A DNA stretch of 64,000 nucleotides from Lachnospiraceae bacterium (lineage in GTDB: Bacteria > Bacillota > Clostridia > Lachnospirales > Lachnospiraceae), in NCBI GenBank assembly GCA_017470985.1, contig JAFUXA010000012.1, positions 1 through 64,000 on the forward strand, given 5' to 3'. A program made the translations under genes and the position numbers. Positions 41,825 to 60,873 of the stretch are shown piece after piece (position 1 is the first letter of the stretch; each line of letters opens with the position of its first letter). The notes beneath the pieces were generated by a model. The model did not search any database. It saw only the letters and a program-made list of their open reading frames with translations, and was not told where the DNA came from.

Positions 41825-42631
41825 ATGGTAGTACAACACAATATGCAGGCAGCAAACGCTAGCCGAGTTTTAAACATTACAGCAAATCAGCAGTCAAAGA
41901 GCACAGAGAAGTTATCTTCCGGTTATAGAATTAACCGTGCAGCAGATGATGCGGCAGGTCTTTCTATTTCTGAAAAGATGAGAAAGCAGATCAGAGGTTT
42001 AGATCGAGCTTCAACAAATGCCCAGGATGGTATTTCGGCAGTACAGACAGCTGAAGGTGCTTTGGCAGAAGTTCACTCAATGCTTCAGAGAGCTAATGAA
42101 CTTTCAGTTCAGGCAGCTAATGGTACAAATGCTACAAAAGATATCGAAGCTATTAGCAACGAGATAGTAGCTCTTAAAGAGGAAATGACACGTATTGGTG
42201 CAACAACAGACTTCAATGGTAAGAAGTTGCTTGCAGGTGAAGATACAACAATATTCGTTGGATATCAGAAGGATTCAAATAATGATATTACAATTGCAGG
42301 TGTAACACTTTCAAATAAGGTTTCTTCACTTGGAGCAATCACAACACAGTCAGCAGCTAAGGATATGCTTGGTAAGATTTCTGTGGCACTTCAGGCTGTA
42401 TCAGATGCACGTTCTGCATTCGGTGCTGTTCAGAACAGATTAGAGCATACAATTGACAACTTAGATAACGTTGTTGAGAATGTAACAGCAGCTGAGTCAC
42501 GTATCCGTGATACAGATATGGCTGATGAAATGGTTAAGTATAGTAAGAATAATATTCTTACACAGGCTGGTCAGTCAATGCTTTCACAGGCAAATCAGTC
42601 TACTCAGGGTGTGTTGTCATTACTTCAGTAG
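41825..42631 (+). CDS. Flagellin 2
   Basis: A 268-residue flagellin of the same D0/D1-only build. It differs from flagellin 1 at about 14 positions, nearly all in the central part (for example IEAISNEI versus IKAISDEI, GEDTT versus GASTT, SNKVSS versus STKVAS) plus single changes near each end. Codon use is less uniform than in flagellin 1. Tandem duplication with retained differences suggests both are filament components. GGAGG lies before the ATG. Confidence 0.96.
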   Translation: MVVQHNMQAANASRVLNITANQQSKSTEKLSSGYRINRAADDAAGLSISEKMRKQIRGLDRASTNAQDGISAVQTAEGALAEVHSMLQRANELSVQAANGTNATKDIEAISNEIVALKEEMTRIGATTDFNGKKLLAGEDTTIFVGYQKDSNNDITIAGVTLSNKVSSLGAITTQSAAKDMLGKISVALQAVSDARSAFGAVQNRLEHTIDNLDNVVENVTAAESRIRDTDMADEMVKYSKNNILTQAGQSMLSQANQSTQGVLSLLQ

Positions 42632-43025: not shown

Positions 43026-44855
43026 ATGAAGGAAATGCTGAAGAAAAACTATGAAAAATTGATTGAGACCCAGAAAAAGTTTGATTTAAAAATTGAAGCA
43101 TATAAGGATTATCAAGACTTCGATGAGTATAAGTATGTCAGTGATGGTAAAGAATGGAATTTGTTCAGTGAAGTAGATATGGACAGAGCAGTTGATGCTT
43201 GGATGGAGCAATTCGATAAAGTACAGTATGATACCATTCTTTTATTATTTGGAATTGGTCATTATAAGTATTTAAACAGCTTGCGTTCTAGATTCCCTGA
43301 TAATGCAATAATTGTATATGAACCATCAGAAGAGATGATGATAAAGTTTTTGGCTCATAAGGAGGCTGAATATTTTTTGGAGGATAACCAAAATTTTCAT
43401 TTTATTCTTGGGGGAAAAAGAAAAGCGGATTTTAGCGAATTGATGAGCGCACTGGTGGCAACTAATACAAAGGATAAAATATGTATTGCTAACATTCCTA
43501 ATTATTCTAAGATTTTTTCAGATGATTTTATGTTTTTTTATAAAATTATTAACGAAAGATATGAAATGGTTCAGGTTAATGAAAAGACATTGATTGAGCA
43601 GGGCGCAGAGCGTGTAGGAAATATCATATATAATATGCGCCATATGGTGGATGAATCCGGTTTGGATGAATTAAAAGTTGCGATGGAAAATCTTGAAACA
43701 GAGGATTGTACAGTTGTTTTAATAGCTGCCGGACCATCTCTTGACAAGAATATCCGTGAACTGAAAGAGTACAAAAATAAAGTCTTTATTGTGTGCGTTG
43801 ATGCTGCGTTAAATACTGCGGTGAAAAACGATATTATACCGGATCTGATAGTGTCAGTAGATCCATACGTATATACTAAGGCTATTGAATCAGATAGTAT
43901 AATAGGCGTTCCGCTTGTCGCAGATTTAGTGTCAAATCCTAAATTGCTTGAAGTTCATAAAGGACGAGTGTTTTATCAATGTTCAAACGCAGATTATCCG
44001 AGACGTGTAATGAGGGATTACGGTGCGGAATTGCTTAACATGCCGCATGGTGGCTCGGTTGCAAATGTTGCATTTTCTTTGTTGCTCTTCATGGGATTTA
44101 AAAGAATTGTTTTTATTGGACAGGATTTAGCATATCCCGGAAATCAATTTCATGCAAAAGATGCTTTTGAAAATGAAGGTGAGTTAGATTTAAATGATAA
44201 TAAGTATTTCTATGTCGAAAGTATTGATGGAGGAAAAGTTCTTACGGAAACCAATATGAATGTATATAGAAAATTCTTTGAGAATCACATTAAAAGGCAT
44301 CCGGACTGTACTTTTATTGATGCAACTGAAGGTGGCGCATTTATTGAAGGAACTGAGATAATGACGCTTAGGGAAGCTCTTGATGGATGTGACAATTTAG
44401 ATGGTATAGGTTTCACTGAATTGATAAATAATGCGAATTATTGGCTTGATGACGAGCAAAAAGAATCCGTATTAGATGAAATGAGAAGTAGTTATGAGAA
44501 TATCAATGCCCAAACTAACAAAATGAGAAATATGATTTCTGTATATAAAAAGCTTGGTAAACTTCTGAAGGAAGAAAAATATTGTTCTAAGGAATTTGCT
44601 AAAAATTATAAAAAAGTTACAGCATTTAATGAATATGTAGAGAATAACAGAGATGTTATGCTTTTGGAACTCTTTACAAACGGAGCTTTGGTAGAGTGCT
44701 TCAATTCCCTTTCTGAGTATGGGGAGACACATAAAGAAGAAATTGATATAATCATAAACAGTGGATTAAATATGATAAAAGGGTATATTGATGCTGGAGA
44801 AGAATTAAAAGAAGTATGGAAAGAGACTTGCGATAAGTACAAATTGCAGTTTTAA
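43026..44855 (+). CDS. Maf flagellin glycosyltransferase 1 (DUF115)
   Basis: A 609-residue motility-associated factor. The DUF115 core near residues 235-460 carries VLIAAGPSLDKNIREL, a DALNTAVKNDIIPDLIVSVDP segment and FIGQDLAYPGNQFHA, the MptE-like nucleotide-sugar site. Maf proteins transfer nonulosonic acids such as pseudaminic acid from CMP to Ser/Thr of flagellin in the cytoplasm. It lies between the flagellin and the pse biosynthesis genes. AGAGGTGG precedes the start. Confidence 0.88.
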   Translation: MKEMLKKNYEKLIETQKKFDLKIEAYKDYQDFDEYKYVSDGKEWNLFSEVDMDRAVDAWMEQFDKVQYDTILLLFGIGHYKYLNSLRSRFPDNAIIVYEPSEEMMIKFLAHKEAEYFLEDNQNFHFILGGKRKADFSELMSALVATNTKDKICIANIPNYSKIFSDDFMFFYKIINERYEMVQVNEKTLIEQGAERVGNIIYNMRHMVDESGLDELKVAMENLETEDCTVVLIAAGPSLDKNIRELKEYKNKVFIVCVDAALNTAVKNDIIPDLIVSVDPYVYTKAIESDSIIGVPLVADLVSNPKLLEVHKGRVFYQCSNADYPRRVMRDYGAELLNMPHGGSVANVAFSLLLFMGFKRIVFIGQDLAYPGNQFHAKDAFENEGELDLNDNKYFYVESIDGGKVLTETNMNVYRKFFENHIKRHPDCTFIDATEGGAFIEGTEIMTLREALDGCDNLDGIGFTELINNANYWLDDEQKESVLDEMRSSYENINAQTNKMRNMISVYKKLGKLLKEEKYCSKEFAKNYKKVTAFNEYVENNRDVMLLELFTNGALVECFNSLSEYGETHKEEIDIIINSGLNMIKGYIDAGEELKEVWKETCDKYKLQF

Positions 44856-46592: not shown

Positions 46593-47588
46593 ATGTTGAA
46601 TGATAAGACAATTTTGATTACCGGAGGCACCGGATCATTCGGACATCATTTTGTAGATTATGTATTACAGAATTATAAGCCTAAGAAAGTTATTATTTAT
46701 TCTCGCGATGAGTTTAAACAATTTCTGATGGACAATGATTATGCTCAGCATAGAGATGTTATGAGATATTTCATTGGCGATGTGAGAGATGAGGATAGAC
46801 TTAAGATGGCCATGAATGGAGTGGATTACGTGATTCATGCAGCTGCTTTGAAACAGGTTCCTGCATGTGAATATAATCCAAACGAAGCCATCAAGACTAA
46901 TGTAAACGGAGCTATGAATGTAATCAACGCGGCTCTTGCGACAGGAGTGAAGAAGGTGGTTGCACTGTCTACTGATAAAGCAGTTAACCCAATCAACTTA
47001 TATGGTGGAACTAAGCTTGTATCTGATAAATTGTTTTGTGCTGCTAATGCATATAGCGGAGATGACGGTACACGTTTTGCAGTGGTCAGATACGGTAATG
47101 TAGCAGGAAGCCGAGGTTCGGTTATTCCATTTTTCCAAAATAAAATTGATAATGGTGAGACAGCCCTGCCAATTACAGATTATCGTATGACCAGATTTTG
47201 GATTAGTTTGGATGAGGGTGTCAAACTTGTTATAAAAGCTCTTGAGGAGGCTCAGGGTGGTGAAACCTTCATTTCCAAGATTCCTTCTTTCAAGATTACA
47301 GATTTGGCGCAGGCTATGCTTCCGGGATGTGAAATGCCTGAGGTTGGAATTAGAGAAGGCGAGAAACTTCATGAGATAATGGTGACTCGTGAGGATTCTA
47401 TGCATACATATGAGTATGATAAGCATTTTATTGTATATCCTAATTACAATTGGTGGAGTGATAGCAAATTGATTCCGGGAGGAAAACTGGTGGCACCGGA
47501 ATTTGAGTATTCTTCGGGTACCAATACTGAGTGGTTGTCAGTTGAAGACATCCGGAGATTGCTAAAAACGGATATAGATAATCATTAA
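46593..47588 (+). CDS. pseB: UDP-GlcNAc 4,6-dehydratase (inverting) PseB
   Basis: A 331-residue short-chain dehydrogenase/reductase. The NAD(P) motif ITGGTGSFGHHF lies at residues 8-19; STDKAVNPINLYGGTKLVSD near residues 128-147 carries the Tyr-x3-Lys catalytic pair and is the PseB/FlaA1 signature. It converts UDP-GlcNAc into the 4-keto-6-deoxy-L-arabino sugar, step one of pseudaminic acid synthesis. No transmembrane region, so the soluble PseB type. GGAGGAG precedes the ATG. Confidence 0.93.
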   Translation: MLNDKTILITGGTGSFGHHFVDYVLQNYKPKKVIIYSRDEFKQFLMDNDYAQHRDVMRYFIGDVRDEDRLKMAMNGVDYVIHAAALKQVPACEYNPNEAIKTNVNGAMNVINAALATGVKKVVALSTDKAVNPINLYGGTKLVSDKLFCAANAYSGDDGTRFAVVRYGNVAGSRGSVIPFFQNKIDNGETALPITDYRMTRFWISLDEGVKLVIKALEEAQGGETFISKIPSFKITDLAQAMLPGCEMPEVGIREGEKLHEIMVTREDSMHTYEYDKHFIVYPNYNWWSDSKLIPGGKLVAPEFEYSSGTNTEWLSVEDIRRLLKTDIDNH

Positions 47589-47593
47589 TTATA

Positions 47594-47626
47594 ATAGCCT
47601 TCTTTATTGAATATAAAGGAGGCTAT
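47594..47626 (+). repeat. Intercistronic hairpin between pseB and pseC
   Basis: A 14-bp stem (ATAGCCTTCTTTAT pairing with ATAAAGGAGGCTAT, one G-U) with a 5-nt loop and no T-tract. It could stabilise the pseB message or modulate downstream expression; it is not a standard terminator. Confidence 0.55.
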
Positions 47627-47653
47627 AAGTGATAAAAGAATGGGGGTTCGTTC

Positions 47654-48883
47654 ATGGAAGAACTTGCAATAAATGGAGGAAAACCTGTAAGGGAGACTCC
47701 TATTTATTATGGACACCAATATATTGATGAAGATGATATACAGGCCGTGGTAGATGTGCTGAAAAGTGACTATCTAACTTGCGGACCTGCTATTGTGGCG
47801 CTTGAAAATAAATTATGTCAAATCACGGGCGCTAAGTATGCTGTGGCTATTTCAAATGGAACTGCGGCTCTTCACGCGGCATGTTACGCGGCCGGAATAA
47901 AAGAAGGCGATGAGGTTATTACTACACCACTTACTTTTGCGGCATCTGCTAATTGCGCTCTTTACTTGGGGGCGAAACCTGTTTTTGCAGACGTGAATCC
48001 GAAAACATATCATATTGATCCGGATTCTATAGAGGCACATATTACTGAGCGGACAAAAGCGGTAGTTGCAGTGGATTTTACAGGACAGGCTGTAGAACTT
48101 GATAGAATCAGAGATATTTGCATCAGGCATAACTTAATTCTTATAGAGGATGGTGCACATTCAATTGGTACTTTGTATAATGGTAAACCTGTTGGAAGCA
48201 TAGCGGATTTGACTACATTTTCCTTTCATCCCGTGAAAACTGTTACAGGTGGAGAAGGCGGAGCGATTTTGACAAATGATGATGAACTGTATAAGCGACT
48301 CCTTCTGTTTAGATCCCATGGAATTACACGAGATGAAAGTTTGATGGATAAATCAGAAGAATATATGGCAGATGCAGATGCGACTGAAGAAGGCCCGGGA
48401 CCGTGGTACTATCAGCAGGTTGATCTGGGATTGAATTATAGGATGACAGATATCCAGGCAACTTTGATATCGAGTCAATTGAACAAATTAGGGCAATTTA
48501 AAAACAGAAGAAGAGATATTGTAAATGCTTATAATGAGGCTTTTGATGGATTTGAAGGCGTGATTATACAGAAGGAGATTCCCGAGTCAGATACGGCAAG
48601 ACATTTGTATATTATAAGATTGGATTTAGATAAATTGACAGCCGGAAGAAGACAGGTTTTTGATGCCTTAAAAGCTGAGAATGTATGTTGTAATGTGCAT
48701 TATATTCCTGTTTATTATTTCCCGTATTATCAGAAACTTGGATATAAGAGAGGATTGTGCCCGAATGCTGAATGTATTTATGATGGGATAATAAGTATAC
48801 CGCTATATCCTGCCATGACTGATGAAGATATAGAATCGGTTATAGGGGCAGTAAAGAAAGTTGTTACATACTATAGAAAATAA
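47654..48883 (+). CDS. pseC: UDP-4-keto-6-deoxy-AltNAc aminotransferase PseC
   Basis: A 409-residue DegT/DnrJ/EryC1-type PLP enzyme. The PLP lysine lies in FSFHPVKTVTGGEGG near residue 197, with DGAHSIG and SNGTAALHAACYAAG as cofactor-contact blocks. It makes UDP-4-amino-4,6-dideoxy-beta-L-AltNAc, the free amine that PseH normally acetylates. In this operon that amine would be the substrate of the lipoyl-linked acyltransferase at 51556. Confidence 0.93.
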   Translation: MEELAINGGKPVRETPIYYGHQYIDEDDIQAVVDVLKSDYLTCGPAIVALENKLCQITGAKYAVAISNGTAALHAACYAAGIKEGDEVITTPLTFAASANCALYLGAKPVFADVNPKTYHIDPDSIEAHITERTKAVVAVDFTGQAVELDRIRDICIRHNLILIEDGAHSIGTLYNGKPVGSIADLTTFSFHPVKTVTGGEGGAILTNDDELYKRLLLFRSHGITRDESLMDKSEEYMADADATEEGPGPWYYQQVDLGLNYRMTDIQATLISSQLNKLGQFKNRRRDIVNAYNEAFDGFEGVIIQKEIPESDTARHLYIIRLDLDKLTAGRRQVFDALKAENVCCNVHYIPVYYFPYYQKLGYKRGLCPNAECIYDGIISIPLYPAMTDEDIESVIGAVKKVVTYYRK

Positions 48884-48913
48884 TAAGTGCTAGATGATTC
48901 GGAGGTTAAATGT

Positions 48914-49636
48914 ATGTCTTCCATTGCAATAATAACTGCCAGAGGGGGCAGTAAAAGAATTCCTAAAAAGAATATAAAGGACTTCTGCGGTAAGCCTATA
49001 ATTGCATATTCTATCGAAGCTGCATTAAAGAGCGGGATTTTTGATGAGGTTATGGTTTCCACAGATTCAGAGGAGATTGCACAAATCGCAAGAAAGTATG
49101 GCGCGTCAGTTCCATTTATGAGAAGTGAGACAACATCAAATGACTATGCGACGACAGCGGATGTTATTTTAGAGGTCATTGATGAGTACAAAAAACTCGG
49201 AAAAGAATTTGACGATTTTACCTGTATATATCCAACTGCTCCTTTTGTGACAGAAGCAAAACTTATAGATGCGTACTCGTTGCTTCAAAATGATAATGCA
49301 GATTCTGTGGTATCTGTAGTTAAATATGATTTCCCACCACAGAGAGCATTTGTTATAAGAAATAATATGTTACAGTTTCAGTATCCGGAATGTCGTGATT
49401 CAAGGAGTCAGGATTTAGAGCCAATCTATCATGATTGTGGTCAGTTTTACATCTGTAAAACATCAGCTTTTATGAAAGCGAAGAGTCTTCTTACAGATAG
49501 AAGTGCTCCGTATTTCTTGAATCCGGAAGAGGTTCAGGATATTGATAATCAATCAGATTGGAATCTTGCAGAAATAAAGTATAGTACTTTTGCAAAGATA
49601 GAAGAACAGAAAGGGTTAGATGATGGGACTTTGTGA
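48914..49636 (+). CDS. pseF: Pseudaminic acid cytidylyltransferase PseF
   Basis: A 240-residue CMP-sugar synthetase. The N-terminal IITARGGSKRIPKKNIKDFC motif (residues 6-25) is the nucleotide site; STDSEEIAQIA and YPTAPFVT are family blocks. It activates pseudaminic acid with CTP so Maf can transfer it. ATG 48914 follows GGAGG. It sits before pseI and pseG although it acts last; its stop overlaps the E1 start, linking the dehydrogenase module by translational coupling. Confidence 0.92.
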   Translation: MSSIAIITARGGSKRIPKKNIKDFCGKPIIAYSIEAALKSGIFDEVMVSTDSEEIAQIARKYGASVPFMRSETTSNDYATTADVILEVIDEYKKLGKEFDDFTCIYPTAPFVTEAKLIDAYSLLQNDNADSVVSVVKYDFPPQRAFVIRNNMLQFQYPECRDSRSQDLEPIYHDCGQFYICKTSAFMKAKSLLTDRSAPYFLNPEEVQDIDNQSDWNLAEIKYSTFAKIEEQKGLDDGTL

Positions 49637-51569
49637 TTATAAATCTGTAATTAAAATACGTGTTTTTGAAGAACTGATACTTGAACTATTTGGTCAAAAC
49701 AAATTGTCAGGAACAACACATACATATATTGGTGAGGAGGCAACTGCGGTTGCCATAATGAAGCACGTTACAGATAATGATAAGGTTTTTTCAAATCACA
49801 GATGTCATGGGCATTATCTGGCATACGGTGGTCCGGAAGAAAAACTCCTTGCCGAGATAATGTCAAAGGAAACTGGATTATGTCAAGGTAGAGGTGGAAG
49901 CCAGCATATACATTACCGGAATTTTTATACTAATGGAATCCAGGGAGGTATAGTCCCTAACGCTGTAGGTATGGCTTTTGCTGATAAATATCTCGGGAAA
50001 AAGGCGAATACATTGGTGTTTTTGGGTGATGGTACTTTAGGACAAGGTGTGGTATATGAATCGCTAAATATTGCATCTGTTTATAGTATACCTGTAGTTT
50101 TTGTGATAGAAGATAATCAATATGCAATGAGTACAAAAAGAACAGATGTTATTGCGGGTGATATAAAGTCCAGAATAAGCGGATTTGATATAGAAACATT
50201 TGAAATCGAAAGTACAGATGTGGATGAATTAGATGCTTTTTTCTTAAATGTGTTTTCATATATTAACAAGGAACGCAAACCGGTTTGTGCCATAGTTCAT
50301 AATTATAGATTGGCAGCTCATAGCAAGGGCGATGATACAAGAAATCCTGATGAAATTGCTGCCTATAAGGAGAATGACCCGCTGAAAATAATTGCTCAAA
50401 AAATAGGCGCGGACGAGGTTCAGTCAATAAAGAATGAGTATAGAAATAAGTTTGTTGATATAGTTGATAGACTTGAAAATGAAAAGACTATAAATCTGGT
50501 TTGCCCTAAATATAATCATAATAAGAGTGCAGAAACATTTGTATCAACAAGCGGAGAACGATATGTGGAGAGCATACGTGAAGCTTTTGCAGAGAGATTG
50601 AAATCGGATGAGCATATTTTGTTTTTGGGAGAAGATATTCGGGAACCATATGGAGGTGCGTTTAAAGCAACAAAAGGGTTGTCTATAGATTATGACCGGC
50701 AGATTATAAATATGCCAATCAGTGAGGCTTGTATGGCAGGATTGGCTGTTGGCATGGGGATGAACGGATTATTACCTGTTGTTGAGATGATGTTTGGTGA
50801 TTTTGTTACCTTGGCATTTGATCAATTATTGAATCATGCTGCTAAATATTCATGGGTATATGGTGATGGCATAAAGGTTCCTATGATAATAAGAACTCCA
50901 ATGGGAGCAAAGCGTGGATATGGCCCTACACATAGTCAATCGCTTGAAAAGTATATGATGGGAATACCTGGAATAAAAATAATAGCGTTGAATCTTGCAA
51001 CTAATCCTAAAATGATTTATAAGCATCTATTTGAATCTATTGTTGAACCTACAATCGTAGTTGAAAACAAAAAGATGTATGGCCAAAAGAGCTGGGTGAT
51101 TCAAAATGGGATGTATAAAGATTATGTTGTGAAAGAAATAAACAACTATGGATTTCCATCATTGCTATTTTCTATCGATCTAGATGCGAAGGCTGATTGC
51201 GTTGTAATTACATATGGAGGAATGGATGAAGAGACGGTAGAGGCGTCATATGAATTAATGTTAACAGAGGAGATTCAAGTGGATGTTCTCATGTTGACAC
51301 AATTATCGCCTGTACCTATTGAGGATATAAAGGAAGCAAATCCGTTTGGTGTGCCAATTGTAACTGTGGAGGAAGGAACGAAAACATCAGGAGTTGGCGC
51401 TGAAATAATTTCGCAATGTGTAGAGCAGAATGTTGCAAAAAAATATGGTCGAGTTGCAACATATGATATGCCAATTCCGAATGGAATAGCATTAGAAAGT
51501 CAGATTGTGCCGAATAAAAAGTCGATTATTGAAAAGATTAAGGAGGTAATCGGAAGTGTCAAAGATTAA
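49623..51569 (+). CDS. Fused 2-oxoacid dehydrogenase E1 alpha-beta (TPP-dependent) in the pse operon
   Basis: A 648-residue fusion. The alpha-type part (about residues 5-300) carries LSGTTHTYIGEEATAV, QGRGGSQHIHY and the TPP motif FLGDGTLGQG ending in EDNQYAMST (about 133-171). The beta-type part (about 325-645) carries FLGEDIREPYGG, ISEACMAGLAVGMGMNG and PVVEMMFGDF. In PDH-type complexes these are separate subunits that decarboxylate a 2-oxoacid and acylate lipoyl groups. The true 2-oxoacid cannot be read from sequence. The overlap with pseF places it firmly within the operon. ATG 49620 is also possible. Confidence 0.92.
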   Translation: MGLCDYKSVIKIRVFEELILELFGQNKLSGTTHTYIGEEATAVAIMKHVTDNDKVFSNHRCHGHYLAYGGPEEKLLAEIMSKETGLCQGRGGSQHIHYRNFYTNGIQGGIVPNAVGMAFADKYLGKKANTLVFLGDGTLGQGVVYESLNIASVYSIPVVFVIEDNQYAMSTKRTDVIAGDIKSRISGFDIETFEIESTDVDELDAFFLNVFSYINKERKPVCAIVHNYRLAAHSKGDDTRNPDEIAAYKENDPLKIIAQKIGADEVQSIKNEYRNKFVDIVDRLENEKTINLVCPKYNHNKSAETFVSTSGERYVESIREAFAERLKSDEHILFLGEDIREPYGGAFKATKGLSIDYDRQIINMPISEACMAGLAVGMGMNGLLPVVEMMFGDFVTLAFDQLLNHAAKYSWVYGDGIKVPMIIRTPMGAKRGYGPTHSQSLEKYMMGIPGIKIIALNLATNPKMIYKHLFESIVEPTIVVENKKMYGQKSWVIQNGMYKDYVVKEINNYGFPSLLFSIDLDAKADCVVITYGGMDEETVEASYELMLTEEIQVDVLMLTQLSPVPIEDIKEANPFGVPIVTVEEGTKTSGVGAEIISQCVEQNVAKKYGRVATYDMPIPNGIALESQIVPNKKSIIEKIKEVIGSVKD

Positions 51570-52572
51570 GATGCCGCGTCTGGGCGTAAACGATGATTAT
51601 GTTACATTGGTCGCATGGCTTGTTGAAGATGGTAGTTGGGTGAAAAAAGGGCAAGTTATAGCAGAAGTAGAAACCTCAAAAGAGGCATCTGAAGTAAAAT
51701 CGGATGCAGAAGGGAGCATTACATTTACTGCTAAAGAAGGCGAAGATATAAATGTAGATAGTGTTATCGCTTTAATTGGTGAGGGTGAGAAGCCGGAAGA
51801 AAAAGAAGGAATCAAAGATAATGTACGAATGACAGATAAAGCACGTAAATTGGTTGAGGATAATAAAATAGATATTACACTTCTGCCTAAGGATACATTA
51901 ATAAGAGAGAAAGATATTTTGCCTTTTATAAAAAAAGCATATACTATTGCACCGACAAAGCAAAATGAGTTGTTATTGTATGGGGCGGGCGGATTTTCGA
52001 AAATTGCTATTGATATTTTGAAAGTATCACATGCATATAATACATATGGAATTATTGATATGGCTTACCCTGACTTGGATGATGTTATGGGAGTGTCAGT
52101 TGTTGGCGGTGATGTTCAACTACAAGATTATTATGATAAAGGATATCGTAAGGTCTTTAATTGTGTGGGTATAAACAGGAAAAAAGCTTATGATAAATTG
52201 AAGGAATATAATTTTGATTTTCCTAATATTGTACACGCGCGTGCTATTTTAGAACCGTCCGTATCTATAGGTGAAGGAAATTTGATATGCGCGGGAGCTA
52301 TTATTGGCGCAGAGGCACAAATCGGAAATGATTGTGTAATTAATGCAGGTGCGATTATTTCTCATGATTGTATAATTAGTGATCATTGTCATATAGCATC
52401 TGGTGCTACATTGGCAGGCTTGATTACAGTGGGTGAAAATACGTTGATTGGACAAAATGTAACGATTTATTCAAGGGTAAAAATTGGAAATAATGTCGTA
52501 ATTGAGAATGGATGTTCTGTATTTAAGAATGTGCCGGATAATACAGTTGTTAGGTATAATAGAGGTAATTAG
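51556..52572 (+). CDS. Chimeric E2-like protein: lipoyl domain + E3-binding domain + NeuD/PglD-type acyltransferase
   Basis: A 338-residue hybrid. Residues 2-77 are a lipoyl domain with the modifiable Lys42 in EVETSKEASEV. Residues about 90-125 (MTDKARKLVEDNKIDITLLP) resemble the peripheral subunit-binding domain that docks E1/E3. Residues 137-338 are a NeuD/PglD-type transferase: Rossmann start LLLYGAGGFSKI, then a left-handed beta-helix with the likely catalytic His270 in AGAIISHDC. The normal E2 catalytic domain is absent. GTG start behind AAGGAGGT, overlapping E1. Predicted to transfer a lipoyl-bound acyl group to a nucleotide-amino sugar. Confidence 0.9.
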   Translation: MSKIKMPRLGVNDDYVTLVAWLVEDGSWVKKGQVIAEVETSKEASEVKSDAEGSITFTAKEGEDINVDSVIALIGEGEKPEEKEGIKDNVRMTDKARKLVEDNKIDITLLPKDTLIREKDILPFIKKAYTIAPTKQNELLLYGAGGFSKIAIDILKVSHAYNTYGIIDMAYPDLDDVMGVSVVGGDVQLQDYYDKGYRKVFNCVGINRKKAYDKLKEYNFDFPNIVHARAILEPSVSIGEGNLICAGAIIGAEAQIGNDCVINAGAIISHDCIISDHCHIASGATLAGLITVGENTLIGQNVTIYSRVKIGNNVVIENGCSVFKNVPDNTVVRYNRGN

Positions 52573-52578
52573 TGTAGT

Positions 52579-53592
52579 ATGACAGAAGGTTATGTAATAA
52601 ATTCTACATCAGTTAATCCATATGATAATCTTGCTCTTGAAGAATATTTGCTTGATTTTTGCAAAGTAAATAAAAAGCCGATTTTGTACTTGTGGCAAAA
52701 TGCAGATACGGTTGTTGTGGGAAAAAACCAAAATGTTTATGCAGAATGTAATATGGGATATATGAAGGAAAAAGGAATTATTCCTTCAAGAAGAATGACT
52801 GGGGGCGGTGCGGTATATCACGACCTTGGAAATGTTAATTATACCATTATTACGACGCGAGATAGTTTTGATATTGGTAAGAATACAGAAATAATTGTAT
52901 TGGCACTTGAGAAATGTGGTGTCAAAGCATTTAAGAATGGTCGAAACGATATTTGTACAAGCAAAGGGAAGATATCCGGAAACGCATATTATTCTGATGA
53001 TTCGGTTGGATTGCAACATGGAACGATTTTGTGGAACGTTGATACAGAAACTATGGGACATACATTAATTGTTTCACAGAACAAGCTTTCAAGCAAGGGT
53101 GTAAAATCAGTTCAAGCAAGGGTTTCAGATGTAGTGTCGGAAAATGATAATGTACAGATATCTGATATAAAGAATGCTATAACAGAGAGCTTTTTGGAGA
53201 ATTTTAATATCGGGCAATATGATGATCATATCGATGTTGATGCTTCCTTTTTGAAGGAATTGCGCGACAAATATTCATCCGAAGAGTGGATAGGGGGTAA
53301 AAATAGAGATTATTCATATTCTCGAAAAAATAGATTTGCATGGGGAGAGGCTGAAATTATTCTTTTGCTTTCTGGAAGGATAATCACAGAAATGGATATT
53401 TATACGGACTGTATAGATTTGAAATTCGTGGAATTAGTGAAGAGCAGAATGAGATTTATGGTAGATTCTCCAGCACAAGCAGGAAGTGGATGCGAGCTTA
53501 ATGAAAAGGATGACTACTATGAGTGGATGGTTGAATTTGAAAATTTTTTGAAACAGATATTTCTTGAACTTGATGTGGATTTTGTTGAATGA
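52579..53592 (+). CDS. Lipoate-protein ligase LplA-like
   Basis: A 337-residue enzyme that attaches free lipoate to lipoyl domains with ATP. The signature SRRMTGGGAVYHDLGNVNY lies near residues 71-89, and the catalytic Lys in GKISGNAYY near residue 134. The C-terminal accessory domain (about 240-337) is present, so full-length LplA type. Only 6 bp separate it from the lipoyl-domain protein, which is its obvious substrate. Confidence 0.92.
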   Translation: MTEGYVINSTSVNPYDNLALEEYLLDFCKVNKKPILYLWQNADTVVVGKNQNVYAECNMGYMKEKGIIPSRRMTGGGAVYHDLGNVNYTIITTRDSFDIGKNTEIIVLALEKCGVKAFKNGRNDICTSKGKISGNAYYSDDSVGLQHGTILWNVDTETMGHTLIVSQNKLSSKGVKSVQARVSDVVSENDNVQISDIKNAITESFLENFNIGQYDDHIDVDASFLKELRDKYSSEEWIGGKNRDYSYSRKNRFAWGEAEIILLLSGRIITEMDIYTDCIDLKFVELVKSRMRFMVDSPAQAGSGCELNEKDDYYEWMVEFENFLKQIFLELDVDFVE

Positions 53593-53608
53593 TGAATGAG
53601 AGGTATAT

Positions 53609-54970
53609 ATGTTTGATGTAATTGTTATAGGTGGTGGCCCCGGAGGTTATAAGACTGCAAATCTTCTCGGGCTGCGAGGGTATAATGTCGCTATGGTTGA
53701 AAAGGATTATGTGGGCGGAATTTGTCTTAATAGGGGATGTATACCATTTAAAACGTATCTTCATACATCAGAGATTATTTCAGAGGCTAATAAATATATA
53801 AAAGCGAAAATTTTGAATGGACAGGACATAAGTATCAATCAAAAGAACCTATTGGATCAAAAAAATATAATTGTTGATGGATTGAGACGGGGGATTACCA
53901 ATGGTTTAAATGCCTGTGGTGTTAAACTTTATGAAGGCGAAGCTCTATATTCTGGAAGAGCTGGAGATAATTATTTAATTAGTGTTAATGGAGAGCTAAT
54001 TGAAGGGAAAAAGATTGTTATTGCCACCGGTGCAAAAGATGTTGAAATGGCAAGTATAAAAATCAATGGCAATATGAAGATTATTACGAGTAGTGAGATG
54101 CTCGAATTGTCTGAGGTGCCGAAACGAATTACGATTGTTGGAGCCGGAGCAATAGGTTTGGAAGCCGCTGCATATTTCAATGAGGTTGGAAGCGAAGTGT
54201 CTCTTGTTGAATACCGGGAGCATATTGGTGGAGGAATTGATTCTGATATTGCAGATGCTTTAGCTAGAATTATAAATAAAAAAGGTATAGATTTATATGT
54301 TAGTTCGACTGTTGAAGAGGTTGATGATAATAATGTATATGTAAAATGTGCAGATGGTTCGAGAATTAACATAGATTCGGAATGTGTTTTGCTGGCTGTT
54401 GGAAGAAAGCCGAATATCGACGAGAAGATGTTGGCGGATTTGAATATTTCATATGACGATAATGGAATAAAAATTAATGACAAATGTCAAACATGCGATG
54501 AAAATGTGTTTGCATGTGGAGATGTTACAGGACAATTAATGCTAGCGCATACGGCATATCGTCAGGCAAAAGTTATTGCAGATACAATAGATGGGAAAGG
54601 GTGCTCTATCGATTATCGTTATATTCCAAAAGTTATTTATATGCATCCTGAGAGTTTGAGTGTGGGACTTACAGAACAGGAGTGCATTGAAAATGGAATG
54701 AAATACGATACTCGTTCATTACCGATGACATATAGCGGAAAATATTTTGCTGATCATGGTAAAGATGGGGCAAAGGTAAAAATGATAATAGATGAACATC
54801 GCAGGATAATAGGCTTTCATATGCTGGCTAATGATTCATCTGAGATATCATTGGCAGCAGAATTGATGATTGCAAATGGGATGAGTATAGATGATATATG
54901 CAATTTGGTATATGCTCATCCATCTTACTCGGAAATAATAGGAGACGTGGCAGAATTATTTAACAGATAA
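53609..54970 (+). CDS. Dihydrolipoamide dehydrogenase (E3) of the pse-linked complex
   Basis: A 453-residue flavoprotein disulphide reductase. The FAD motif IGGGPGGYKTA lies at residues 7-17 and the redox pair in GICLNRGCIPFK at residues 37-48, with Phe where Ser or Thr is usual. The NAD motif is IVGAGAIGLEAAAYF, and the C-terminal AHPSYSEIIGD carries the catalytic His. It reoxidises dihydrolipoyl groups with NAD+. Presence of E3 shows the lipoyl cycle is meant to turn over oxidatively. Confidence 0.93.
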   Translation: MFDVIVIGGGPGGYKTANLLGLRGYNVAMVEKDYVGGICLNRGCIPFKTYLHTSEIISEANKYIKAKILNGQDISINQKNLLDQKNIIVDGLRRGITNGLNACGVKLYEGEALYSGRAGDNYLISVNGELIEGKKIVIATGAKDVEMASIKINGNMKIITSSEMLELSEVPKRITIVGAGAIGLEAAAYFNEVGSEVSLVEYREHIGGGIDSDIADALARIINKKGIDLYVSSTVEEVDDNNVYVKCADGSRINIDSECVLLAVGRKPNIDEKMLADLNISYDDNGIKINDKCQTCDENVFACGDVTGQLMLAHTAYRQAKVIADTIDGKGCSIDYRYIPKVIYMHPESLSVGLTEQECIENGMKYDTRSLPMTYSGKYFADHGKDGAKVKMIIDEHRRIIGFHMLANDSSEISLAAELMIANGMSIDDICNLVYAHPSYSEIIGDVAELFNR

Positions 54971-54983
54971 AAGAGGTGATGAG

Positions 54984-56045
54984 ATGTTGGATAGAAGCAT
55001 CAAAATAGGGGATAGAGAAATAAATGAAGATTCTCCGACATATGTTATTGCGGAGATGTCGGGAAATCATAACATGGATTACGATAGAGCTTTACGGATT
55101 CTCTATGCTGCAAAAGAAAGTGGAGCAGATGCTATCAAGCTTCAGACATATACTGCAGATACAATCACATTGAATTGTGATGATCCATGCTTTCAGATTA
55201 CTCAAGGGACTTTGTGGGATGGACGTACTTTGTATAACTTATACAAGGAGGCATATACTCCATGGGAATGGCAACCCAAATTGCAAGAGGTTGCGAAAGA
55301 AATAGGATTGGATTTTTTTTCAACTCCTTTTGATTTTACCAGTGTTGACTTCTTGGAACAGATGTCTATTCCGGTATATAAAATAGCATCGTTTGAGATG
55401 ACAGATATTCCTCTTATAAGGAAAGTGGCAAAATTGGGAAAGCCGATTATTATGTCAACGGGAATAGCTACTTTACAAGACATAGAATTAGCGATTAATA
55501 CATGTAAAGAGGTGGGAAACAATGATGTGATTCTGTTGAAGTGTTGTTCTGCTTATCCTACCCCATATGAAGATATTAACTTGAGGACTATGGTAAATAT
55601 GGCAGATACTTTTGATTGCTTAGTAGGATTGTCAGACCATACAATGGGTCATGATGTTGCCGTTGCAAGTGTTGCAATGGGTGCAAAAGTTATAGAAAAG
55701 CATCTGACTTTAAGCCGGGCAGATGGTGGCGTGGACTCAGCATTTTCTATGGAACCACAAGAGTTTAAAGATATGGTTAATGGAATAAGAAACGTTGAAA
55801 AGGCGTTAGGAAAGGTTACTTATGAATTGACCGATAAACAAAAGGGCGAGCGAGAGCATGGAAGATCTTTGTTTATAGCAAAAGATATGAAAGCGGGAGA
55901 GATTTTAACGCCAGAAAACATGCGCTCTGTAAGACCTGCACATGGTTTACATACAAAGTATTACGATATGTTACTGGGTAAAAAAGTGAATAAAGATGTA
56001 AAACTTGGAACTCCGATGAGCTGGGACATTATAGATTTTGATTAG
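54984..56045 (+). CDS. pseI: Pseudaminic acid synthase PseI
   Basis: A 353-residue NeuB-family enzyme condensing the 2,4-diacylamido-trideoxyaltrose with PEP. The barrel domain shows IAEMSGNHNMDYDRAL near residue 22, DAIKLQTYTADT, SCTP-type STPFDF and LKCCSAYPTPYEDINLR. A C-terminal SAF domain (about 290-350: GRSLFIAKDMKAGEILT) completes it. Typical length; GAGGTGATGAG precedes the ATG. Confidence 0.93.
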   Translation: MLDRSIKIGDREINEDSPTYVIAEMSGNHNMDYDRALRILYAAKESGADAIKLQTYTADTITLNCDDPCFQITQGTLWDGRTLYNLYKEAYTPWEWQPKLQEVAKEIGLDFFSTPFDFTSVDFLEQMSIPVYKIASFEMTDIPLIRKVAKLGKPIIMSTGIATLQDIELAINTCKEVGNNDVILLKCCSAYPTPYEDINLRTMVNMADTFDCLVGLSDHTMGHDVAVASVAMGAKVIEKHLTLSRADGGVDSAFSMEPQEFKDMVNGIRNVEKALGKVTYELTDKQKGEREHGRSLFIAKDMKAGEILTPENMRSVRPAHGLHTKYYDMLLGKKVNKDVKLGTPMSWDIIDFD

Positions 56046-56056
56046 GGTGTTGATTT

Positions 56057-57085
56057 ATGATTGTTTTTAGGGCTGATGGAAACTCTATAATTGGCATGGG
56101 TCATATTATGAGATGTATATCTATAGCAAATCAGGCGAAGAAAATGGGACATGACTGTTTATTTATTGTTGCTTCTGGAGATTGTGAAAGAATAATAAGT
56201 GCTGCAGGTCATTCTGTTAAAGTGATAGACTCTGATTATTTAAATTGGAGAGACGGCGAGCTGGATTTTGTTTTTGATTATTGTATTCCTAATATGATGA
56301 TTGTGGATTCTTATTATATAAAAAAAGAGTTCATGGTTGGCTTACATGATAAATGTAAGAAGAATGAGACTAAGCTTGTGTATATTGATGATAGATGCGT
56401 AGAGGCATATGAATGTGATGTGTTAATTAATTATAATGTTTTTGCATCAAATATGGATTATGGCTCTATTTATGGCAATAATGACATCCCTAGAATGTTG
56501 ATGGGAACAAAGTATGTGCCTCTTAGGGATGAGTTCTTTGAAAAAAAGAGAATGGAACTATCTGAGTTTGGAAAGAATATATTGATTTCAACGGGTGGAG
56601 CTGATTCTGAACATCTAACAAGTGCTCTGCTTCAGGTTGCGTCAGAATATAAGGATTTTGATTTTCATGTTGTTGTAGGTATGATGAATGAAGATAGGGA
56701 TATTTTGAAAGCTGAGGCATTGAACAACAGGAACATTTTTATTTATGAAAATGTAAACAATATGTCTGAGTTGATGCTATCTTGCGATTTGGCAATTTCA
56801 GCTGCAGGATCTACATTATATGAATTATGTGCTATGCAGACACCGACAATAACATATGTTTTAGCGGATAATCAGGTGCCTGCCGCGGAAATGTTTGGTT
56901 CTGAAGGTGTAATTATAAATTGTGGAGACATCAGAAAACTTGGCAAGGATAAACTTGCAAAAAAATTGATTAAAGAGGCTGCTGCTTTGGCAAGAGATTA
57001 TTCTAAACGTCAAGATGTTTATGAGAAAATGATTAAATATGTAGATGGTGGTGGGGCGAGAAGAATACTAGAAGAAGCATTATAA
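56057..57085 (+). CDS. pseG: UDP-2,4-diacylamido-trideoxyaltrose hydrolase PseG
   Basis: A 342-residue MurG-like GT-B hydrolase that removes UDP before PseI. It shows the N-terminal RADGNSIIGMGHIMRC with the catalytic His region, VDSYYI, and ISTGGADSEHLTSALLQ and AISAAGSTLYELCAMQTPTI in the C-terminal half. Some PseG proteins carry a fused GNAT PseH; this one ends at the hydrolase domain, so PseH is not supplied here either. Last gene of the operon. Confidence 0.92.
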   Translation: MIVFRADGNSIIGMGHIMRCISIANQAKKMGHDCLFIVASGDCERIISAAGHSVKVIDSDYLNWRDGELDFVFDYCIPNMMIVDSYYIKKEFMVGLHDKCKKNETKLVYIDDRCVEAYECDVLINYNVFASNMDYGSIYGNNDIPRMLMGTKYVPLRDEFFEKKRMELSEFGKNILISTGGADSEHLTSALLQVASEYKDFDFHVVVGMMNEDRDILKAEALNNRNIFIYENVNNMSELMLSCDLAISAAGSTLYELCAMQTPTITYVLADNQVPAAEMFGSEGVIINCGDIRKLGKDKLAKKLIKEAAALARDYSKRQDVYEKMIKYVDGGGARRILEEAL

Positions 57086-59712: not shown

Positions 59713-59952
59713 GTCAATAAAACTCAAAACAATATTTGGAAAAGATTAGTAGATATTTTCATTTATTTTGCACAATGGACATATGAGATAGCGGGTGCTA
59801 GAATGGCGATACATGATGTAAGGCTTGTAATGTTCATTTACCACATTTCAAGTGTATTTAGTTGTTTTTAGAGTAGGTTATTAGGAGTAGTGTTGTGATA
59901 TTCTGATATTTCTGCCTTACATATAAAATTATGTAATGAAGGAGGTGGAAGT

Positions 59953-60873
59953 ATGAGCGAATTGACTAAAGAGTTTTTTATCCAGGTTCTCGATGACAGA
60001 TTTGGCAGGTTTGAAAATGAGATGTCTGGAATGAGATCTGACATAGCTGAATTGAAAGAGGATGTGTCAGCCTTGAAAGAAGATGTATCCGGTTTAAAGG
60101 AAGATGTGTCAGTCTTGAAGGAAGATGTATCTGGCTTAAAGGAAGATGTATCGAGCTTGAAGGAGGATGTTGCAGGTCTGAAAGATGATGTTGCAGTTCT
60201 GAAAGAGGATGTTGCAGGTCTGAAAGAAGATGTGTCAGTCTTAAAAGAAGAAGTGTCAGTCTTAAAGGAAGATGTGTCCGGCTTAAAGGAAGATGTGTCC
60301 GGCTTAACGGAAGATGTATCCGGCTTAAAGGAAGATGTATCCGGCTTAAAGGAAGATGTGTCCGGCTTAACGGAAGATGTATCCGGCTTAAAGGAAGATG
60401 TGTCAGTCTTGAAGGAAGATGTATCCGGCTTGAAGGAAGATGTATCCGGCTTGAAGGAAGATGTATCCGGCTTGAAGGAAGATGTGTCCGGCTTGAAGGA
60501 AGATGTATCCGGCTTGAAGGAAGATGTGTCCGGCTTAAAGGAGGATGTATCTGGCTTAAAGGGAGAAGTATCCGGCTTAAAGGAAGATATGTCGAGTCTT
60601 ACAGGAAGAGTATCTCGTTTGGAAACAGGAATGACCAGGTTGGAGGACAAAGTATCTGATCTTAGTGCGGATGTTCAGATTATCAAGATTAATCAAGAAC
60701 ATTATGTTGAACGATTGATAAATGAACTCCATGCTGTTTACAAAACAGAGTTTAATAAGTATGAAACCCACAACAATAATGTTAATGATCTTATGGAACA
60801 TTCCAAGGTTGTTGATGACGTCATAGAAGATCATTCTGAGAGAATAGAGACTTTAGAAATTAAGGTTGGATAG
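59953..60873 (+). CDS. Long coiled-coil protein of about 26 near-identical heptads
   Basis: A 306-residue cytoplasmic protein. After a 33-residue N-terminal segment come about 26 copies of the heptad LKEDVSG (variants LTEDVSG, LKDDVAV, LKEEVSV), then diverged heptads and an ordinary C-terminal coiled coil. The 21-bp DNA unit is repeated almost exactly from 60050 to 60590, strongest at 60400-60560. Leu and Val alternate in a/d positions, giving a very regular coiled coil. The N-terminal part (LTKEFFIQVLDDRFGRFENEM) resembles proteins with tandem coiled-coil tails often found near phage or toxin genes. Function unknown. AGGAGGTGG precedes the ATG. Confidence 0.85.
   Translation: MSELTKEFFIQVLDDRFGRFENEMSGMRSDIAELKEDVSALKEDVSGLKEDVSVLKEDVSGLKEDVSSLKEDVAGLKDDVAVLKEDVAGLKEDVSVLKEEVSVLKEDVSGLKEDVSGLTEDVSGLKEDVSGLKEDVSGLTEDVSGLKEDVSVLKEDVSGLKEDVSGLKEDVSGLKEDVSGLKEDVSGLKEDVSGLKEDVSGLKGEVSGLKEDMSSLTGRVSRLETGMTRLEDKVSDLSADVQIIKINQEHYVERLINELHAVYKTEFNKYETHNNNVNDLMEHSKVVDDVIEDHSERIETLEIKVG
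60050..60595 (+). repeat. 21-bp coding minisatellite (heptad-encoding)
   Basis: About 26 tandem 21-bp units encode the heptads. Adjacent units at 60400-60560 are identical or differ at one or two third-codon positions, a sign of recent unit duplication. Copy number is therefore likely to vary between strains without frameshift. Confidence 0.88.

Follow-up and report, generated by a model that had tools for sequence, protein, structure and literature searches.

Between pseF and pseI of a pseudaminic acid (Pse) operon, in a stretch of 64,000 nucleotides from a Lachnospiraceae bacterium (assembly GCA_017470985.1, contig JAFUXA010000012.1, positions 1 to 64,000 of the forward strand; hereafter referred to as the window), lie four genes encoding a 2-oxoacid dehydrogenase-like set of proteins, in which the E2-like protein carries a NeuD/PglD-type left-handed beta-helix (LbH) acyltransferase instead of the E2 catalytic domain (this protein is hereafter referred to as E2-LbH). 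On balance, we lean towards a reading in which the coenzyme A (CoA)-dependent catalytic domain of E2 has given way to a sugar N-acyltransferase, and in which the resulting 2-oxoacid dehydrogenase-type complex replaces PseH. The architecture of the module is certain. A first-pass annotation of the DNA had placed a fused E1, an E2-like protein, a lipoate ligase and an E3 between pseF and pseI, and this anatomy was confirmed by the open reading frames (ORFs) and their family matches. The genes of the operon are as follows:

46593..47588, + strand: pseB, UDP-GlcNAc 4,6-dehydratase (inverting); TIGR03589, 536.1 bits (cut-off 407.75)
47654..48883, + strand: pseC, 4-aminotransferase making the amine; TIGR03588, 467.1 bits (cut-off 423.5)
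48887..49636, + strand: pseF, CMP-Pse synthetase; TIGR03584, 300.8 bits (cut-off 205.7)
49620..51569, + strand: E1, alpha and beta fused, 649 aa, dependent on thiamine diphosphate (ThDP); PF00676, PF02779 and PF02780
51556..52572, + strand: E2-LbH, 338 aa; lipoyl domain and NeuD/PglD LbH acyltransferase
52579..53592, + strand: lplA, lipoate-protein ligase; TIGR00545, 287.9 bits (cut-off 280)
53609..54970, + strand: E3, dihydrolipoyl dehydrogenase; TIGR01350, 393.5 bits (cut-off 408.8)
54984..56045, + strand: pseI, pseudaminic acid synthase; TIGR03586, 503.9 bits (cut-off 340.25)
56057..57085, + strand: pseG, UDP-sugar hydrolase; TIGR03590, 208.9 bits (cut-off 153.55)

These nine genes form a single run on the + strand, from pseB to pseG (46593-57085). 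The pseF and E1 genes overlap by 17 nt and those for E1 and E2-LbH by 14 nt, with gaps of 6 nt between E2-LbH and lplA, 16 nt between lplA and E3, 13 nt between E3 and pseI and 11 nt between pseI and pseG. PseB, PseC, PseF, PseI and PseG all scored above their NCBIfam equivalog cut-offs. This tight gene run is complete for Pse synthesis except for PseH, and the module is therefore a candidate replacement for that enzyme. The possibility that the module was compositionally foreign DNA was considered and dropped, because its GC content (0.347-0.366) was similar to that of the pse genes (0.343-0.395), although its GC3 was slightly lower (0.245-0.284 versus 0.271-0.340).

The lipoyl domain of E2-LbH (Biotin_lipoyl, PF00364) spans aa 3-74 (45.9 bits, cut-off 22.1) and contains the motif ETSK42E, with Lys42, which we take to be of the lipoyl (ETSKE) rather than the biotin (MKM) type; a biotin carrier was rejected, as there is no MKM motif and lplA is located next door. 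The transferase part matched PglD_N (aa 139-209) and the TIGR03570 NeuD model (aa 139-332; 177 bits, cut-off 160.8). One other full-length fusion of this type was found, in a genome hereafter referred to as G338; the two E2-LbH copies are 44% identical, and the G338 copy scored 154.0 bits with TIGR03570, below the cut-off. Pfam scans did not find the PF00198 E2 catalytic domain in either copy, whereas the same library detected it in all five ordinary E2 proteins scanned as controls (of 11 ordinary E2). Thus, the lipoyl domain and the replacement of the catalytic domain stood as first annotated, but the subunit-binding domain attributed to the same protein had no Pfam match at E up to 10, although such a match was obtained for four of the five controls. 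A profile of the two E2-LbH sequences nonetheless matched the subunit-binding reference over approximately aa 88-127, with a probability of 90.7 and a score of 29.75, the scores of 100 column shuffles being at most 13.3. This reference consisted of 12 segments picked by eye from eight of the 11 ordinary E2, one of which (L124) also had no Pfam match. E2-LbH probably contains a short subunit-binding domain, about three residues shorter.

The catalytic residues of the LbH domain were compared with those of 66 relatives consisting of the NeuD part only, one from each of 66 of 73 loci (seven loci without a matching ORF of 180-260 aa were dropped); removal of near-copies at 90% left 58 sequences. 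His270 aligned with the residue of perosamine N-acetyltransferase that is His in structure 4ea7 and is replaced by Asn in 4eaa and by Ala in 4eab, and would thus be the base mutated in the latter two. This histidine was invariant in the NeuD-only relatives (66/66; 58/58 after deduplication), as was the glycine 18 residues downstream, Gly288 (66/66), and both residues are kept in the two fusions. In Pcryo_0637, the base (His142) and the glycine of the oxyanion hole (Gly160) are spaced as His270 and Gly288 are (PMC8040287). The serine preceding the catalytic histidine (Ser269) was considered as a mark of a new donor and discarded, since VioB also has a serine at this position.

The fusions depart from their relatives in the last coil and the tail. 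Both lack G317, A318 and the tail glycine G334 (of a G-x-P motif), which were present in 51, 44 and 50, respectively, of the 58 deduplicated relatives, none of which lacked all three. According to the portions of PMC8040287 consulted, Asn212-Pro213 in the last turn of Pcryo_0637 is cis in the presence of CoA and trans without it, as in apo-PglD, and the coil that follows folds back upon CoA binding. The tail motif of the family probably corresponds to the Pro213 site, judging from motif and place rather than a residue alignment, and positions 317 and 318 would lie on the CoA side, given their place in the last coil. The loss of these residues fits a donor lacking the adenosine end of CoA.

The assembly (2,383,235 bases, 35 contigs, 88.76% complete) yielded two Biotin_lipoyl matches: E2-LbH and a 118-aa carrier on contig C31. 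The latter best matched the biotin domains of oxaloacetate/methylmalonyl-CoA decarboxylases and adjoins genes for an oxaloacetate decarboxylase alpha protein (oadA-type; 755.8 bits, cut-off 718) and a decarboxylase beta protein (476.5 bits, cut-off 190.6). None of the four GcvH matches in the assembly was above the cut-off, and the best of them was E2-LbH itself. A single lipoate ligase match (PF21948) was obtained for this genome, corresponding to the lplA of the operon. The only lipoyl domain and the only lipoate ligase found in the assembly therefore sit in this operon. E3 fell 15 bits under the cut-off of TIGR01350, its best model, but it has a redox cysteine pair (CLNRGC at aa 39) and the motif HPSYSE near its C-terminus, and its 29 best solved relatives were all dihydrolipoyl dehydrogenases or E3 components.

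The fused E1 contains E1_dh (aa 11-273), Transket_pyr (317-488) and Transketolase_C (524-636) domains, all above the Pfam cut-offs, and a ThDP motif, GDG(136)...EDN; it is 45% identical to the fused E1 of G338. Among solved relatives, human pyruvate E1 gave 112 bits for alpha and 123 bits for beta, as against 63-64 and 78 bits for human branched-chain E1, whereas Geobacillus pyruvate E1 alpha gave only 38 bits. With TIGR03182, the score was 222.2 bits (cut-off 393.85). E1 specificity is thus not fixed by the sequence, which is nearer to human pyruvate E1 and yet distant from the Geobacillus enzyme, and the acyl group could be acetyl, propionyl or another short acyl, acetyl being as likely as any. 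A non-acetyl group had been proposed initially, on the grounds that acetyl-CoA is abundant and that a dedicated complex suggests another acyl group; this argument is reasonable, but the E1 scores gave it no support.

In 383 genomes of the order, E1 was matched in 15 at an E value of 1e-40 or better, including the genome studied here. Twelve loci were retrieved from 11 of the 14 other genomes (G1254, G1289 and G1370 were left out). At all 12, E1 alpha and beta were separate ORFs (one alpha being partly masked); an E2-like ORF adjoined 11, the twelfth running into a contig edge, and an E3-like ORF was present at 10. The five E2 controls with PF00198 came from these loci. In G1370, the match was confined to the E1 beta part of a 707-aa frame, which may represent a second kind of E1 fusion. 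Two E3-like proteins in ordinary complexes of related bacteria (L121 9451-11160 and L122 3008-4783) apparently have an N-terminal lipoyl domain of their own.

In the mechanism that we propose, the four proteins would work as a complex. LplA would attach lipoate to Lys42 of E2-LbH, and the fused E1 would decarboxylate a 2-oxoacid on ThDP and reductively acylate the lipoyl arm. The charged arm would enter the LbH groove at the site of the pantetheine of CoA, where His270, as the base, would help the PseC product, UDP-4-amino-4,6-dideoxy-L-AltNAc, to attack the thioester through its 4-amino group, while the backbone amide of Gly288 would provide the oxyanion hole. E3 would reoxidise the dihydrolipoyl arm with NAD+, and PseG, PseI and PseF would convert the product to CMP-Pse for flagellin. 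The net reaction would be 2-oxoacid + NAD+ + sugar-NH2 -> sugar-NH-CO-R + CO2 + NADH.

Several points weigh against this mechanism, the first of which concern PseH, although some of the findings on that step are in its favour. The parts of PMC4363471 consulted describe PseH as an acetyl-CoA-dependent GNAT, with its mechanism, and PglD, an LbH enzyme, as catalysing a comparable 4-N-acetylation in another nonulosonate pathway, which supports the proposed reading. The absence of PseH from the operon and of a GNAT fused to PseG had been asserted from the sequence alone, and Pfam and NCBIfam scans bore this out: PseG had no GNAT match, and a search for a separate pseH identified none above the cut-off in the operon or in the 88.8%-complete assembly, where seven weak GNAT matches were obtained. 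Against the mechanism, given this level of completeness, a separate PseH may lie in the missing part, and PseH is the best NCBIfam match of one of the seven GNATs (C8:42085), albeit below the cut-off (44.8-45.4 bits, cut-off 93.1).

The identity of the acceptor is the second such point. Position 147, which is His in 64 of the 66 NeuD-only relatives, is Phe in the window copy and Ile in that of G338, and position 306, which is Gln in 50 of the 66, is Ser and Met, respectively. From motif and spacing, these positions would be equivalent to His15 and Gln178 of PglD, the two sugar-adjacent positions described for Pcryo_0637 and PglD in parts of PMC8040287. A UDP-4-amino sugar is not proven as the acceptor, because these candidate sugar-adjacent residues are changed. 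The two fusions also differ from each other at both positions, which fits different acceptors. The position of the module in the operon suggests the PseC product as the acceptor; this is an L-altro sugar, whereas PglD acts on a D-gluco substrate.

These observations bear on what is, in our view, the most credible of the alternatives, although an unlikely one: that the lipoyl-armed enzyme directly acylates another position or a later intermediate (O- or N-acylation of Pse or CMP-Pse, as for NeuD), the PseH step being performed by a GNAT encoded elsewhere. The TIGR03570 model spans the NeuD, PglB and VioB sugar acetyltransferases, a family that mixes O- and N-acylating enzymes, and the altered sugar-adjacent residues would be compatible with such a change of acceptor, as would the existence of a GNAT with weak similarity to PseH. 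However, the score of this GNAT is half the PseH cut-off and its gene belongs to another sugar cluster, being flanked by a polysaccharide flippase-type gene and by genes for FdtA and a DegT aminotransferase; the other six weak GNATs fit PseH less well than they fit RimJ, RimI, ArsN, generic GNAT or other models. A small GNAT gene was observed beside FdtA both in this genome (L041 4080-4989) and in G013, a genome of the same genus as G338 (L092 481-1438); this pairing suggests that the GNAT serves a 3-amino sugar rather than Pse.

The third point concerns the donor, since the characterised LbH relatives (NeuD, PglD, PerB and VioB) use acetyl-CoA. For Pcryo_0637, the use of acetyl-CoA is described in the parts of PMC8040287 consulted. 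Moreover, a recognisable tail proline, present in 44 of the 58 deduplicated relatives, is also missing from 14 of these ordinary enzymes, the argument from residue loss is based on two fusion sequences only, and the tail motif is equated with Pro213 of Pcryo_0637 by motif only. We give slightly less credence again to the corresponding alternative, in which the LbH domain uses acyl-CoA and the lipoyl, E1 and E3 parts supply acetyl-CoA locally or have a regulatory role. Such a supply would lack the E2 catalytic domain that passes the acyl group from lipoyl to CoA, a domain found in every ordinary E2 control, and neither copy retains the last-coil and tail residues. In an anaerobe from this family, acetyl-CoA would also be expected to come from other enzymes.

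The distribution of the fusion was investigated with E2-LbH, or an alignment of its two sequences, as the query, in genomes of the family (397), the class (391) and the phylum (398) and in relatives of G338 (395), amounting to 1,581 genome searches; the samples overlapped, and no more than a few candidates were scored in each genome. Only the genome studied here and G338 yielded the full-length lipoyl-LbH fusion; all other matches at the thresholds used began at query position 73 or beyond, and were therefore without the lipoyl domain. There was no further copy in the two other genomes of the same genus or in three other genomes of the genus of G338. Of two contig scans, one yielded nothing and the other, which relied on two short patterns and is hence weak as a census, only the G338 contig. 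A tblastn search of plasmids gave 45 records, but in none of them did the match extend over 80% of the query, and two viral contig scans and PADLOC provided no lead.

In G338 (L040 6624-14900), the genes for the fused E1 and E2-LbH lie just after a resolvase-like gene and are followed by genes for a radical SAM/SPASM protein and then an FkbM methyltransferase protein. No ligase, E3 or Pse genes were found nearby (in the 16.4 kb retrieved, which reach the contig end), and, as a last point against the proposed mechanism, no PseI match was obtained in the whole G338 genome at an E value of 1e-20. The module is thus not bound to Pse, and in G338 it likely has a different acceptor. The co-occurrence with pse genes in the absence of pseH, which was to accompany the replacement of PseH first suggested, was observed in the genome studied here, in which the module sits where the PseH step is missing, but not in G338, the sole other bearer of the fusion. 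We are inclined, a little more than not, to consider the module as a new class of 2-oxoacid dehydrogenase complex and the E1/E2-LbH pair as a portable cassette with a host-dependent acceptor, directly forming a nucleotide-sugar amide without acyl-CoA and constituting, maybe, the only use of lipoate in this bacterium.

G338 also provides the grounds for an alternative that we rank lower still and consider doubtful, in which the module really acts not on a Pse intermediate but on another glycan or on a protein undergoing modification, as may be the case in G338 with its adjoining radical SAM/SPASM and FkbM genes. In the window, by contrast, the module is embedded in a Pse run with exactly one step missing, overlapping pseF and ending just before pseI, and the two copies differ at positions 147 (F/I) and 306 (S/M) in the way that separate acceptors would predict. 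Finally, a decayed or non-functional acquisition, which the rare and patchy distribution and the slightly lower GC3 of the module might suggest, is very improbable, as the four ORFs are open over their full length with intact ThDP, lipoyl-Lys, His and Cys-pair motifs, and the two copies have kept these motifs at 44-45% identity.

The idea that the module was standard Pse equipment was abandoned because the pse locus of a congener, G139 (L091, C14:157000-176000), which is 97% (pseB), 85% (pseC), 68% (pseF) and 50% (pseI) identical to that of the window, lacks it. The G139 locus, beside flagellin and Maf-like genes, instead carries genes for an ATP-grasp protein, LicD, PEP mutase fused to nucleotidyltransferases, an Fe-alcohol dehydrogenase and a ThDP enzyme, and perhaps directs a phosphonate-decorated flagellin glycan. 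No ORF matching pseG was found in this 19-kb stretch (the G139 genome was not searched for pseG or pseH). In G013, a formyltransferase-domain protein encoded between pseI and pseF (L092 10537-11124), in a stretch also containing HMGL-like, AAC(3)-like and AMP-binding enzymes, is a possible further stand-in for PseH. The acyl step appears to be changeable among related bacteria. At 70 of the 73 NeuD-only loci, an ORF matched a pse, maf or flagellin gene of the window at an E value of 1e-8, most commonly a NeuB/PseI-type gene (31-41% identity). LbH transferases are thus ordinary in nonulosonate pathways, and what is new here is the lipoyl arm with its charging enzymes. In the literature searched, we found nothing relevant on lipoyl groups in connection with pseudaminic acid, nonulosonic acid, PglD, nucleotide-sugar N-acyltransferases or flagellin glycosylation, and no described system of this form, in agreement with the first-pass annotation; in the parts of PMC4875605 consulted, "lipoylation" refers to fatty-acid genes.

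Three genes upstream from the operon may be related to the use of its product:

41825..42631, + strand: flagellin (fliC-like), the likely glycan acceptor; ORF, named by eye
43026..44855, + strand: Maf-type protein 1, candidate nonulosonate transferase; MptE-like PF01973, 136.1 bits
44896..46509, + strand: Maf-type protein 2; MptE-like PF01973, 117.5 bits

The flagellin is 77-78% identical to the products of two ORFs beside the G139 pse locus, and the two MptE-like PF01973 proteins are presumably of the type known as Maf. Downstream from the operon, at 59953-60873 (+ strand), a gene encodes a protein of LKEDVSG-like heptad repeats, whose 21-nt units keep strictly to register through some 23 steps; the product is a long coiled coil. 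This region is open on both strands, with a 260-aa frame on the - strand at 59868-60650.

The lipoyl swinging arm is known for feeding CoA, one-carbon units and sulfur metabolism. If the proposed mechanism is correct, it also feeds glycan assembly, a 2-oxoacid dehydrogenase complex need not pass its acyl group to CoA, and the N-acyl groups of flagellar sugars would be set by the specificity of E1 rather than by the acyl-CoA pool. The compact set of four proteins would also be a candidate for direct amide synthesis from a 2-oxoacid.

The module resembles the pyruvate and acetoin dehydrogenase complexes in its ThDP-dependent E1, lipoyl domain with its lysine, subunit-binding-like segment, E3 and lipoate ligase, but differs from them in having a sugar acyltransferase instead of PF00198 and a fused E1 alpha-beta. 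It shares with NeuD, PglD, PerB and VioB the TIGR03570 match (above the cut-off for the window copy), the base histidine and the oxyanion glycine, whereas E2-LbH carries its own lipoyl domain, has lost last-coil and tail residues and has altered sugar-adjacent residues. The module would fill the same pathway step as PseH, with a different fold and, presumably, a different acyl donor. LbH transferases taking an acyl group from a carrier arm do exist: LpxA and LpxD, which appeared as weaker matches, combine the LbH fold with a protein-bound acyl arm, in the form of acyl-ACP. In those enzymes, however, the arm is phosphopantetheine charged by fatty-acid synthesis, whereas that of the module would be a lipoyl group charged from a 2-oxoacid by E1.

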